A stretch of DNA of 40,118 nt from a virus. The first letter of the stretch is position 1, and every line of letters starts with the position of its first letter. The notes beneath the pieces were generated by a model. That model did no database searches, had not been told where the DNA came from, and was given only the letters and a program-made list of their open reading frames with translations. The translations under genes were made by a program, and so were the position numbers. This document shows, piece after piece, positions 3,766 to 21,727 of the stretch. The stretch spans positions 1 through 40,118 of the IMG/VR virus record IMGVR_UViG_3300017713_000017. One strand, given 5' to 3'.

Positions 3766-4373
3766 AAACTCATACCTTTGTCAATAATATTCTTTGCAAA
3801 GAAATCATGTGTTTTTTGTCCATAGTGACTATTTGTATCTGATAATTGATCATGCTGTAAATTTGATAAACATCTTCCACCAAGGTCTGGGTGTATAGGC
3901 CAACCCCAAAATCTGTCTTTATCTATTAAATCATATAAAGGATGTTGTATTATGAATTTTGCAGCTTCAAACATTTTATCTATTTTCATATGTGGCCATG
4001 GCCATAAGTCTTGATAGAATGTATAATTTAGATTCATTTGTTTTAGTGCTGATTGTAATGAGTAAAATAGATTTATATTTAAATTTGCTATTTGTTTAAA
4101 TTCTTCATCACTTATAGTCTGTAACCATTCTTGGCTTTCTTTGTTTGGTGTTTTTAATACTCTATACCACTCTGACCAAAACACATATACATGATCTATT
4201 TGTTTTTGTTGTATTGATCTAAGAACAGCATCACATATAAAATCATTTCCTACACCAGACTTAGAAACATTATCCACTTCAATATCTAACATATCTGTCC
4301 AAACAGAAATATTATTTTTTGTATAATCAGAATACTTAGGATGATGATTGCTGTCGCCTGCTACTATAATCAT
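3762..4373 (-). CDS. SGNH/GDSL-like protein (second copy)
   Basis: AGDSN at residues 5-9 gives the nucleophile Ser8, SKSGVGND near residue 37 is the block II Gly region, and DTNSHYGQKTH near the C-terminus supplies Asp and His. It has the same overall plan as the 954-1667 protein (VFWSEW here, VMWSQW there), so the two are diverged paralogues. At 203 aa it is slightly shorter. The start overlaps the dehydrogenase-like gene by 4 bp, suggesting joint expression, perhaps in surface-sugar modification. Confidence 0.78.
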   Translation of the reverse strand: MIIVAGDSNHHPKYSDYTKNNISVWTDMLDIEVDNVSKSGVGNDFICDAVLRSIQQKQIDHVYVFWSEWYRVLKTPNKESQEWLQTISDEEFKQIANLNINLFYSLQSALKQMNLNYTFYQDLWPWPHMKIDKMFEAAKFIIQHPLYDLIDKDRFWGWPIHPDLGGRCLSNLQHDQLSDTNSHYGQKTHDFFAKNIIDKGMSL

Positions 4374-5074
4374 ATATCTTTCTTTCTTTGTGTTTCATTA
4401 TAATCAATTAGTGAATCTAAGAATTTAAAATCAGTTGTATTAACAAGTCCTTTCATCACTTCAATATTCATAGGAAAACATTTACCACCCCACCCTAATT
4501 TTCCGTCATGACCTGGTACATCAAAATGATCATGTATCCACATACGCTCATCTGCAGCCATGGTATCTTTTAATTTGTTGTAATCTAATCCATGTTCTTT
4601 ACATAAGTTGTAAAGCATATTAGCAAAAGTAACTTTCTGAATAAAATATACATTTGTTGATAGTTTTGCCAACATTGCATATTCTGGTGTTGTGTAATGA
4701 AAATTACTATGAATAGAAACTTTGTTTAACATATTAAACTGTTCTGGTGTTCCACCTACTATAGATGTCTTAGGATACAAAGCATCGTAATCAGCGTATC
4801 TCTCTGTTAGAAACTCTGGGTACACTGCAAAGTTTGTATCTTTAACCCATGTAAATGGTATCGTTGATCTGATATACACACATGGGTGATTTGTAAGTTT
4901 CTTAGTGTAAATATCAACAGATGGTTCTGGTGTGCATATAAACACAGCATCTGCTTCTTGATAGATACAATGTTTACCCTGGTGTGGGTCATGTATCATT
5001 ACTTCGTGTTGTCTTTGAATTGTTTTGTGAGTTGCTTTACCAACTACTCCATAACCAATAATCGCTACTTTCAT
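4370..5074 (-). CDS. UDP-glucose/GDP-mannose dehydrogenase-like protein, short form
   Basis: The NAD-binding motif GYGVVG lies at residues 7-12, the family motif PEFLTER at 86-92, a KLSTN helix at 137-141, and the catalytic GWGGKCFP with Cys199. This family oxidises a nucleotide sugar to the uronic acid in two steps. At 234 aa it lacks the C-terminal UDP-binding domain of typical enzymes (about 390-450 aa) and ends about 35 residues after the catalytic Cys. It may be a minimal enzyme, dimerise differently, or act on another substrate. Flanking SGNH and glycosyltransferase-like genes fit a glycan role. Confidence 0.88.
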   Translation of the reverse strand: MKVAIIGYGVVGKATHKTIQRQHEVMIHDPHQGKHCIYQEADAVFICTPEPSVDIYTKKLTNHPCVYIRSTIPFTWVKDTNFAVYPEFLTERYADYDALYPKTSIVGGTPEQFNMLNKVSIHSNFHYTTPEYAMLAKLSTNVYFIQKVTFANMLYNLCKEHGLDYNKLKDTMAADERMWIHDHFDVPGHDGKLGWGGKCFPMNIEVMKGLVNTTDFKFLDSLIDYNETQRKKDI

Positions 5075-20064: not shown

Positions 20065-20621
20065 TGAATCACTTTCATTAGAGCTACTTTACACTTTTTC
20101 GTATCTATTGTCAAGAGCTTTTTGTACTTTTTTATCATTTTTTTATGGTCTTTCCATATTATATCAGAATCATCCCAATCTTTGATATATCCAACTAAAT
20201 CGTCTAGAATTACCATGGTTTCTATTGATATTCTTTTTCCTAGATATTCTTTTAATAGTATAGGATGTTGATCTTCCCACTTAAATAACTCTTCAAATCG
20301 ATCTGCAAATGGTGTTATCTCATTTGTTAGATTATATGTTAAAGATTGTATTCTTTTCTTCCAATTCAAATAATTGTCTTCATTAAAATTTTTAACATAA
20401 CCATTTTTGTCTGCTAAGAAATTTGATATGATATAATTTTCTACGTCTTTTTTATCTTTATACTTCCTAGCAATCCTTGCAAAAAATATCCTGTCGTTTC
20501 TTTTATAGAAAGACATTTTCTTAGTTTTGGTTTTTCCAGCGTACTTATGATAATCATAACCTTCTCTAGAGAAGTGTGCCTTAATTGCACAATACATCAT
20601 ATAAACTTCAACGGGTTCCAT
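20061..20621 (-). CDS. 59: Helicase loader gp59
   Basis: The pattern matches T4 gp59: VYMMYCAIKAHFSREGYDYHK at the N-terminus (T4: VYKLYLMIKQHMNGKYDVIKY), then KRNDRIFFARIARKYK, NYIISNFLADKNGY, and a C-terminal half with IWKDHKKMIKKYKKLLTIDT (T4: VWNNYSIKLKAYRKILNIDS). gp59 binds gp32 and forked DNA to load the gp41 helicase. All-helical and basic, 186 aa (T4: 217). It overlaps both neighbours by 1-4 bp, in the T4 order 33-59. Confidence 0.9.
   Translation of the reverse strand: MEPVEVYMMYCAIKAHFSREGYDYHKYAGKTKTKKMSFYKRNDRIFFARIARKYKDKKDVENYIISNFLADKNGYVKNFNEDNYLNWKKRIQSLTYNLTNEITPFADRFEELFKWEDQHPILLKEYLGKRISIETMVILDDLVGYIKDWDDSDIIWKDHKKMIKKYKKLLTIDTKKCKVALMKVIQ
20086..20114 (-). promoter_or_regulatory. 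Candidate promoter before gene 19342-20064/gp32
   Basis: TTGACA (20114-20109), 17 bp, TAAAGT (20091-20086); predicted start about 20079, just before the ATG at 20064. Inside the gp59 C-terminal codons. The -10 is poor (4 of 6), so support is moderate. Confidence 0.4.
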
Positions 20622-20860
20622 TAATCGATAGGTAGTTTTCCTTTGCCTTCTACATCGCTTGAGATTAATCTTAATTCTCTTGCGTTTGCTTCTATTTTTG
20701 ATTTTAATGCCTTAGTAATTAACTTTGCTACTGTTTCTATTTCTATTTCATTTGATTCACAATAATGTGTTACTGCGTCCAAGTGATTAATTCCCTTTTC
20801 TACAGCCATTTGTTCTATCTGTAGTGAAAATGTTTTTGGTGTAATTTTAAATAAACTCAT
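20621..20860 (-). CDS. 33: Late transcription co-activator gp33
   Basis: 79 aa, containing NHLDAVTHYCESNEIEIETV and KALKSKIEANARELRLI. This is the T4 gp33 core pattern (DAVxxYCExNxIExET...K.K.EARxL). gp33 binds the RNA polymerase flap and links the sliding clamp to late promoters with gp55. The C-terminus carries a hydrophobic end (GKLPID) comparable to the clamp-binding tail. Its presence agrees with the TATAAATA late promoters in the window. It starts just after the tmRNA coding piece. Confidence 0.88.
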   Translation of the reverse strand: MSLFKITPKTFSLQIEQMAVEKGINHLDAVTHYCESNEIEIETVAKLITKALKSKIEANARELRLISSDVEGKGKLPID

Positions 20861-20932
20861 TAATAATCCTATAAAGTGGCAAGTTTCTGTTGCCAGGTAC
20901 TTGCCGACCCCGACTGTTAATTACGCTAGCAA

Positions 20933-20962
20933 TTAGGCAGCCATTGCAAAATTATTGTTTGC
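20933..20962 (-). other. tmRNA proteolysis tag frame
   Basis: Ten codons, GCA AAC AAT AAT TTT GCA ATG GCT GCC TAA, encode ANNNFAMAA. Start A-N-(D/N)-N-F and the hydrophobic-Ala-Ala end match bacterial SsrA tags recognised by ClpXP. With the alanine from charged tmRNA, the peptide added is ten residues. Confidence 0.92.
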
Positions 20963-21035
20963 ACTTATGGTTGTGAATACTCGGGTAAGATACTCGTCAG
21001 CAGTCGAAACCTATTTCACCCCCATCCTAACCACA

Positions 21036-21167
21036 CTACTTACAAAGGTCTTCATACTTAGTGGTATGTACTCTATGTTGAGATAAATCTCTACCAAGAT
21101 AACCTGGTATTTGTTTTTCTTTTTTTGTCAAGAAATTATTGAATACATTTTTAAACCATTTTAGCAT
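21036..21167 (-). CDS. 43 aa protein gene nested between the tmRNA halves
   Basis: The ATG at 21167 has a perfect-looking ribosome site (AAGGAGTCTTAA). The product starts MLKWFKNVFNNFLTKKEKQI and ends with HTTKYEDLCK, amphipathic basic helix first, then IPGYLGRDLSQHRV. The frame starts 29 bases after the acceptor CCA and stops 12 bases before the 5' half, so it exactly fills the intervening segment that normally is removed. If translated, mRNA and tmRNA precursor are one transcript. No family recognised. Confidence 0.65.
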   Translation of the reverse strand: MLKWFKNVFNNFLTKKEKQIPGYLGRDLSQHRVHTTKYEDLCK

Positions 21168-21264
21168 TTAAGACTCCTTAATGTGTTTAGGATGATGGTG
21201 GAGGTGGAGGGTATCGCACCCTCGTCCTAACTAATTTTTTACAAACCGTCATCGAATTCAACTA

Positions 21265-21302
21265 TATTTATAACATAGTTCGAAAGCAATGTCAAGGGTT
21301 AA
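21265..21302 (-). promoter_or_regulatory. tmRNA promoter with combined early and late signals
   Basis: Minus strand: TTAACCC, TTGACA (21295-21290), 17 bp, TATAAA (21272-21267). The -10 is part of TATAAATA (21272-21265), the exact T4 late octamer. Predicted +1 near 21260-21258, about 20-30 bases before the acceptor domain. The TTAACCC box overlaps the rubrerythrin stop codon. Confidence 0.85.
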
Positions 21303-21727
21303 CTTGAGCCTTCTAAGTATGCATCTAAAGTTTTTTGAAACTTACCAGCATGTGACTTCTCTGCCTTTGCTAGTGTTTCAAACCAATCTGCAATTTCATC
21401 AAAACCCTCTTCTCTAGCAGTTCTTGCCATACCTGGGTACATATCAGTGTACTCATGTATTTCACCTTTGATTGCTGAATTTAAATTTTGTTTAGTATCA
21501 CCCATTGGTTCATTAGTTGCTGGGTCACCCACTTCTTCTAAGTATTCTAAATGACCATGAGCATGACCAGTTTCACCTTCTGCTGTTGATCTGAATACTT
21601 GTGCTACTTCGTTAGCGCCTTCAATGTCTGCCTTTTGAGCAAAGTACAAGTATCTTCTATTTGCTTCTGATTCACCTTGAAATGCGGCTCTTAAATTATC
21701 TTTTGTTTTACTATCTTTTAGTTCCAT
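21299..21727 (-). CDS. Rubrerythrin-like diiron protein
   Basis: A 142 aa ferritin-like four-helix bundle with the diiron ligands of rubrerythrin: E in [11 protein letters not shown] in [12 protein letters not shown] in KGEIHEY and E..H in [10 protein letters not shown]. Opening [20 protein letters not shown] is typical. Rubrerythrins reduce peroxide. The C-terminal rubredoxin electron-donor domain is absent, so it needs an outside donor or works as a sulerythrin-type protein. It may protect the infected cell from peroxide; marine SAR11 cells live fully aerobic. It sits between a nuclease and the tmRNA. Confidence 0.9.

Follow-up and report, generated by a model that had tools for sequence, protein, structure and literature searches.

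The window, that is, the whole stretch of DNA analysed (an IMG/VR virus record of 40,118 bases, G+C 32%, with T4-like genes), encodes a permuted alpha tmRNA whose intervening segment carries a small protein gene of its own. The evidence presented here makes it probable that the segment between the two halves of this phage tmRNA serves as a cargo slot, occupied here by one small protein gene and in other phages by different ones. The intervening segment of two-piece tmRNAs has hitherto been seen as the part missing from the product; in marine phages it appears to be both coding and exchangeable. The finding is wider than the preliminary description of this DNA stated.

The tmRNA of the window

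The window tmRNA is a permuted alpha tmRNA that has all of the features tested, and what sets it apart as a variant is its coding, exchangeable intervening segment. The covariance check called for in the preliminary description gave matches above threshold to both the alpha_tmRNA (RF01849, 86.2 bits, threshold 50) and the tmRNA_permuted (RF04321, 79.1 bits, threshold 47) models, each complete from first to last model position and on the minus strand (20875-21299 and 20933-21246), and ARAGORN also reported a permuted tmRNA, with the tag ANNNFAMAA, which ends in the small or hydrophobic residues used as the criterion for a tag. Thus, the permuted arrangement originally proposed, with the acceptor half first on the minus strand, is borne out by both programs, as are the 7-bp acceptor stem, its G-U third pair, the encoded CCA, and the tag by the coordinates and the fold. 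On the minus strand, the acceptor half is followed by the intervening segment and then by the 5' half with the tag. The acceptor (3') half occupies 21196..21246 in the RF04321 and RF01849 alignments and consists of an uninterrupted T arm (21223-21207), the acceptor strand (21206-21200), and the discriminator (21199), as read from the alignments, with CCA encoded at 21198-21196. The 5' half, including the tag-coding part, covers 20875..21023 in the covariance match, with G1 at 21023 and the tag frame reported by ARAGORN, stop included, at 20962-20933. The acceptor stem pairs 21206-21200 with 21023-21017; all seven pairs are present in the minimum-energy fold, although only about one-fifth of the ensemble forms the stem. 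A broken or decoy tmRNA was considered and rejected, as the parts tested by ARAGORN and Rfam are intact, and group I intron families had no match in the window, nor in 20600-21700 at E values up to 5.

Upstream of the acceptor half, a candidate -35 box, TTGACA (21290..21295, minus strand), lies 17 nt upstream of TATAAATA (21265..21272, minus strand), which on paper may be either a -10 box or a T4-type late promoter and which is also found in the nearest other relatives of the window (L124-L129). The late-promoter motif is TATAAAT as given in PMC9004378, and the whole arrangement reads as a putative early promoter and equally as a T4-type late one. A consensus scan of 20600-21400 on both strands reported no promoter- or terminator-like site; the scanner accepts a -10 box only if its sixth base is T, and it missed this likely upstream promoter as well. 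The minus-strand gene order is PhoH, GH108 endolysin, PD-(D/E)XK nuclease, a rubrerythrin-like gene, the tmRNA, gp33, gp59, one further gene, and gp32, where the gp33-like late-transcription coactivator immediately downstream of the tmRNA is encoded at 20621..20860 on the minus strand (PF16805, E 3.1e-21; phrog_254, E 1.2e-23). The rubrerythrin-like gene (21299-21727) ends where the tmRNA match starts; in L129-L134 there is other sequence in its place, and in phage Mosig rubrerythrin sits elsewhere.

The nested gene and its family

Between CCA and G1 lies an intervening segment of 172 nt (21024..21195, minus strand), which is expected to be missing from the mature tmRNA. It contains an AAGGAG ribosome-binding site (21174..21179, minus strand) 6 nt ahead of the ATG of a 43-codon gene, MLKWFKNVFNNFLTKKEKQIPGYLGRDLSQHRVHTTKYEDLCK, at 21036..21167 on the minus strand, with the stop TAG at 21038-21036. 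This frame and its ribosome site had been recognized in the preliminary description and are found as described (21167-21036); the further statement that the frame fills the gap exactly was slightly overstated, as it occupies most of the segment (132 of 172 nt) and leaves 28 nt before the ATG and 12 nt after the stop. Of 4000 dinucleotide shuffles of the segment, 190 contained a frame of at least 43 codons, and 9 had such a frame together with a ribosome site. Conservation is stronger evidence for coding than this estimate of chance. In the second check named by the preliminary description, homologues of the nested protein were found to occupy the corresponding position in related phages: L479 has a diverged one at this site of its own permuted tmRNA, identical to the window protein in 27 of 43 alignment columns, and further nested homologues are found in L667, L669, L670, L674, L680, L683, and L697. 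Over the last 17 codons, comparison of the window with L479 gave a pN of 0.108 and a pS of 0.927, and all pairs of the nine nested copies gave 0.163 and 0.781, a ratio of 0.21. By these rates, the nested copies are evidently under purifying selection, and the nested frame is, on the same evidence from substitutions, a real gene. When the window protein was first aligned with frames from L064, L103, and L217, only three columns were invariant; the relationship emerged afterwards, through L479 and sequence clustering. Exact conservation of the window gene is confined to the near-identical contigs L122/L654 and L123.

A C-terminal motif, HRxH[TS]TKYEDLC, defines what appears to be a new small phage protein family (F1, HTTKYEDLC), in which the form HRxH[TS]TKYEDLC[KM] follows a short, variable N-terminus and to which the window product conforms. 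A pattern scan with the window and L479 pair found 349 candidate F1 stretches in IMG/VR, and the best 80 of these, which include many near-duplicates and have 35 distinct C-termini, were analysed. At least 16 of the 80 are nested in a permuted tmRNA, 14 found by our script and two (L674 and L680) by Rfam; since the script missed these two true cases and Rfam was applied to 18 of the 80 loci, 16 is a lower bound. A further three lie just upstream of a tmRNA (L675-L677), three just downstream (L729, L731, and L732), and one farther off. The remaining 57 had no permuted tmRNA by script, nor did the 10 of these checked with Rfam, within the locus DNA examined. By eye, several of the stand-alone copies are preceded by genes for small membrane proteins, and among the upstream neighbours scanned, those of L666, L678, L689, and L723, only that of L678 is a recognized holin (PF11351, E 1.6e-19; phrog_3427). 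A membrane- or lysis-related role for the F1 product is weakly favoured on the basis of this one clear stand-alone gene that follows a holin gene. Neither Pfam (no match) nor PHROG (best E 0.2) identified the 43-residue product, and three other F1 members likewise had no family match in Pfam or PHROG. Among the named phages, a DNA search with the window locus returned no homologue, and tblastn with nested peptides returned nothing or weak, chance-like matches; the exceptions in these searches were the L458 tmRNA DNA, which matched the tmRNA of phage Melnitz, and cargo of the L451 type, which matched Melnitz gene 85. A glutamine riboswitch inside the window segment was also considered and was rejected, as there was no Rfam match. 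In L669 and L670 (about 3880-4510), the segment is 391 nt long, CCA included, and has two overlapping genes, one of the window family and a 77-codon hydrophobic frame beginning at the stop of the first.

Nested frames in other permuted tmRNAs

To place the window among permuted tmRNAs, these were gathered by pattern scans and through relatives, and counts are drawn from the matches listed (120 per scan; 118 for genome contigs). A gene entered the counts if it had each of the seven acceptor pairs as well as a tag-like ending, which gave 315 of 359 matches and 258 distinct sequences (253 viral and 5 bacterial); the survey counts are of distinct sequences rather than independent events. To be scored as coding, a segment needed a ribosome site and a frame that was 24 codons or longer and took up 60% or more of the segment; segment lengths include CCA. 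Among the matches listed, 174 viral segments were 100 nt or longer, and 108 of these passed, compared with 3.3% of dinucleotide shuffles, and for the frame alone, with no ribosome site asked, the figures were 151 of 174 and 23%. Since one scan had pre-selected for a ribosome site and ATG, the fairer figure for site and frame together is 92 of 151, from scans that selected on length and not on a frame. The scan for the acceptor alone yielded 80 distinct permuted genes; the segment reached 100 nt in 16 of them, and 10 of these passed. None of the 31 segments of 60-99 nt did so (shuffles, 1.5%). Among the 66 of 174 long viral segments that failed the coding test, L330, L407, and L535 look non-coding by eye.

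The 108 frames fall into 23 sequence clusters, of which the largest have 47 members (a small membrane-like protein) and 23 members (the window's family with shorter relatives) and 14 are singletons. They span 24-120 codons, a strongly hydrophobic stretch is found in 7 of the 23 clusters, and no endonuclease match was found among the inserts scanned. On codons outside the tmRNA 5' half, and with at least three differences required of each sequence pair, pN/pS in eight multi-member clusters was 0.31, 0.68, 0.22, 0.56, 0.39, 0.26, 0.57, and 0.29, and a ninth had too few differences. The value of 0.68 is that of the F1 cluster for the frame within the segment and suggests that part of the F1 frame evolves fast.

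The genome-contig scan returned mainly chance matches, with no permuted tmRNA by the first detector and five by a broader one. RF04321 was found in 270 of 289 genomes of one bacterial class, 263 of them above the cut-off. The 30 best-scoring bacterial loci, a sample biased to short segments, have segments with a median of 32 nt and a maximum of 51 nt (CCA included), and among length-selected bacterial segments of at least 90 nt, one of five (shuffles, 8%) and none of seven passed the coding test, which amounts to one of eight distinct sequences, as four were shared. Nested genes therefore look mainly like a phage feature, on what is a small bacterial sample.

Several of the loci surveyed have a more elaborate arrangement. 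The segment of L217 (1937-2709) is 502 nt long, CCA included, and contains a short frame ending in KIPKYLSGRRGMME as well as one of 120 codons that weakly matches an HP1-type holin (E 0.015). In L518 (6758-7129), a frame-bearing segment is followed by an apparent second acceptor half, where Rfam gives one tmRNA, and the locus is possibly overlapping or tandem. By eye, a second, overlapping frame with its own AGGAG lies ahead of the commonest cargo in L116, L466, L475, L483, L493, and L462, perhaps for translational coupling. A conserved YYYTPxEWSR frame in L427, L448, L505, and L414 has its stop 64 nt beyond the G1 junction, inside the tmRNA. Within 3038-3164 of L305, the segment has a frame that by eye is zinc-ribbon-like (CxxCGKEF...CSKEC); the segment shows no start codon for it, and upstream the frame stays open into the acceptor half.

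Turnover of the segment among relatives

The preliminary description had counted relatives with the tmRNA but a non-coding segment as evidence against its reading. The nearest other relatives of the window, L124-L129, are of this kind, with the same tmRNA, 22-23 nt after CCA, and no nested gene, while their gp33 (L126, L127, and L129) shares 70-74 of 79 residues with that of the window. As more diverged phages keep the nested gene under selection, we read its absence from L124-L129 as gain and loss of cargo and not as a refutation. The more distant L130-L134 have short segments too, and L683 and L697, which are more distant still, have a nested homologue ahead of gp33 and a nuclease-like gene upstream. 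This distribution, with short segments in near relatives and the gene in farther ones, suggests that the insert comes and goes, and the nested gene would thus have been gained and lost over time, in either order. The gp33 tree is based on few columns and has many unresolved forks, and it was therefore used for close neighbours alone. Exchange is suggested by L458, L529, and L496, whose gp33 proteins are identical at 59-62 of 68 residues and whose tmRNA 5' and 3' halves are 92-93% and 75-87% identical, respectively. Their inserts differ, with a segment identity of 0.52-0.58 in a forced global alignment: that of L458 is the commonest membrane-like cargo, that of L529 is an MWIYKC- frame, and that of L496 is an MRTEMKH- frame that begins in CCA and is without a recognized ribosome site. 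It seems, then, that close relatives swap, gain, or lose cargo while the tmRNA persists.

Terminal stem and junction

The two ends of the segment are predicted to pair with each other. In the window, ATCCTAA (21187..21193, minus strand; pair probabilities 0.86, 1.0, 1.0, 1.0, 1.0, 0.99, and 0.38) and TTAGGAT (21024..21030, minus strand), which adjoins G1, form in the predicted fold an unbroken 7-bp stem next to the acceptor stem. In 94 of the 108 coding segments, the two ends can form a stem of 8 bp or more, compared with 29.6% when ends are swapped between phages and 10.3% when they are shuffled. A stem of this length is also found in 42 of the 66 long segments that failed the coding test and in 28 of the 31 of 60-99 nt, and it is therefore not special to coding segments. 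The end stem thus appears to belong to the slot in general and is probably maintained by compensatory changes, with the genes lodged inside. The window tmRNA region as a whole, with the segment and both halves, folds with z = -5.2 relative to shuffles. In the predicted fold, the last part of the frame is base-paired to the ribosome site and the AUG, so that the ribosome site is mostly paired in the precursor, and on this prediction for naked RNA, unfolding may be needed for translation.

Where the frames end relative to G1 varies among the clusters. A common junction is TGAT followed by GGGGGCGAAATAG, and the commonest stop lies one base before G1 in six clusters, at +13 in the 5' half in seven, 12 nt before G1 in four, and elsewhere in the other six, three of these being in the 5' half at +42, +64, and +112. 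In the window the stop lies 12 nt before G1, within a mixed cluster whose most frequent stop is at +42 (11 of 23).

Discussion

From this layout, we propose that a single transcript would start at the promoter upstream of the acceptor half and that the tRNA-like part would be built from both halves, with the segment ends paired beside the acceptor stem and the gene in the loop, should the predicted fold form in the cell. The segment would be released through RNase P cleavage at G1 (21023) and 3'-end processing just past CCA (21196), and the product would be a two-piece tmRNA working with the host SmpB, as in the two-piece tmRNAs already known. With its own ribosome site, start, and stop, the segment could be translated into the 43-residue protein while still in the precursor or once it has been released; codon selection supports translation of the nested gene, and we infer the order of events and the RNA species involved. 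The protein belongs to the F1 family, which is often encoded elsewhere, and the contents of the slot would turn over while the tmRNA stays. It follows from the layout that, as the preliminary description suggested, one transcript may be both mRNA and tmRNA precursor, while the phage control over the order of maturation and translation that it also raised is only hinted at, by the predicted fold in which the ribosome site is hidden. A stable non-coding RNA and a message apparently share one transcript here, so that coupling between the maturation of an mRNA and that of a tmRNA can be put to the test.

A more elaborate version can be put forward tentatively, as a possibility that we would not yet call probable. 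In it, the tmRNA segment of marine phages is an interchangeable gene slot in which tRNA-processing enzymes mature an mRNA and the excised mini-mRNA is guarded by its paired ends, and the stops inside the tmRNA (7 of 23 clusters mostly at +13 and 3 more farther in) create a self-limiting circuit. With the stop inside the tmRNA, a cut at G1 would leave the message stopless, the kind of RNA on which tmRNA acts; excising the tmRNA would thereby strip the stop and make the message a substrate of the same tmRNA. Such a circuit would not apply directly to the gene of the window.

Other explanations of the nested frames have to be weighed against the cargo slot. The long segments could in principle be structured RNA or decaying DNA in which the frames are incidental, and it is true that some long segments are without a good frame and that the window tmRNA region with its segment is far more stable than shuffles, in a fold that includes the tmRNA halves. 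However, codon-level selection in several families, ribosome sites far above the level in shuffles, and frames common to phages with diverged DNA make this very improbable. Alternatively, the nested gene may be real and expressed separately from its own promoter, its position being a neutral landing place. The occurrence of F1 genes away from tmRNAs fits this, as 59 of the 80 loci (the best of 349) had no permuted tmRNA by script, and among 12 of these checked with Rfam, two proved to be nested (L674 and L680) and 10 had no tmRNA in the DNA examined, as does its occurrence just upstream (L675-L677) or just downstream (L729, L731, and L732) of tmRNAs. We nevertheless regard separate expression as unlikely, given that the gene is enclosed by paired segment ends in different phages, that the stop is often supplied by, or adjoins, the start of the tmRNA 5' half, and that 20600-21400 contains no promoter- or terminator-like site on either strand in a scan that also missed the likely upstream promoter.

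A less easily dismissed proposal is that the inserts are selfish or hitch-hiking and that the slot is a safe harbour from which the tRNA enzymes remove them, in the manner of introns in other tmRNAs, with no benefit tied to the tmRNA, and this is compatible with the layout of the cargo slot. Different inserts do turn over at one locus, and a harmless route for their removal is built in. Yet the inserts are of 24-120 codons with none of those scanned being endonuclease-like, 7 of 23 clusters have a strongly hydrophobic stretch, and the clusters scored are under selection, and we consider this account doubtful. The survey adds 23 clusters of small phage proteins that annotation may miss, as in Melnitz, where the tmRNA alone is annotated.

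The cargo slot can be compared with several known systems. The two-piece alpha tmRNA (RF01849/RF04321) shares with the window the order of the halves, the acceptor stem, CCA, the tag frame, and an intervening segment, but in bacterial permuted tmRNAs this segment is short (median 32 nt in the 30 best-scoring loci, taken regardless of length), whereas that of the window phage contains a conserved gene. The available part of PMC11915505 describes tmRNA genes with a group I intron that has a homing endonuclease (36 of 883 intron forms), which resemble the window in having a protein gene inside the tmRNA gene that is removed in maturation. In contrast, the introns there are self-splicing and lie in the T-loop region, while the window has no intron, tRNA-type end processing is expected, and no endonuclease was found. 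The same portion of that paper reports one permuted tmRNA with a tRNA-Ala gene in the intervening sequence, from a single nominally archaeal bin, which likewise is a second gene in the intervening segment, although it is an RNA gene there and protein genes in many phage contigs here. It also notes that the longest permuted intervening sequence has a repetitive element, and it does not, in that portion, mention protein genes in such sequences. In the literature searched, which mostly excluded subscription journals and preprints, no report of protein genes in the intervening segments of permuted tmRNAs was found.

Phage Melnitz, which infects OM43 strain H5P1, provides a cultured phage-host pair with such a locus. 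Its tmRNA has no gene annotated within it, and its segment (145 nt with CCA) contains an unannotated frame with GGAG six bases ahead of the ATG, beginning MFKWLSKTRLVVITRDYFRERNRKADAKIPKYLSG and continuing into the 5' half, whose predicted peptide is MFKWLSKTRLVVITRDYF. In the part shared with L683, a member of the window family, pN is 0.204 and pS is 0.726. Like the window, Melnitz has a permuted tmRNA with a PD-(D/E)XK nuclease upstream, a late coactivator downstream, and a nested frame. The part of PMC9004378 available places the tmRNA beside the late-transcription coactivator and discusses a riboswitch, with no mention there of a gene inside the tmRNA. Some cargo also adjoins the tmRNA instead of lying inside it: Melnitz gene 85, directly upstream, shares 66% identity with the cargo that L451 carries in its segment. 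Other RNA elements were noted as well: a glutamine riboswitch is located just downstream of the tmRNA in Melnitz and L364, the aptamer following a nested-gene tmRNA directly in L774 (2402-2450) and L364 (1303-1351), and phage Mosig (L178, 7089-7296) has a manA RNA motif with a score of 64.0 bits.
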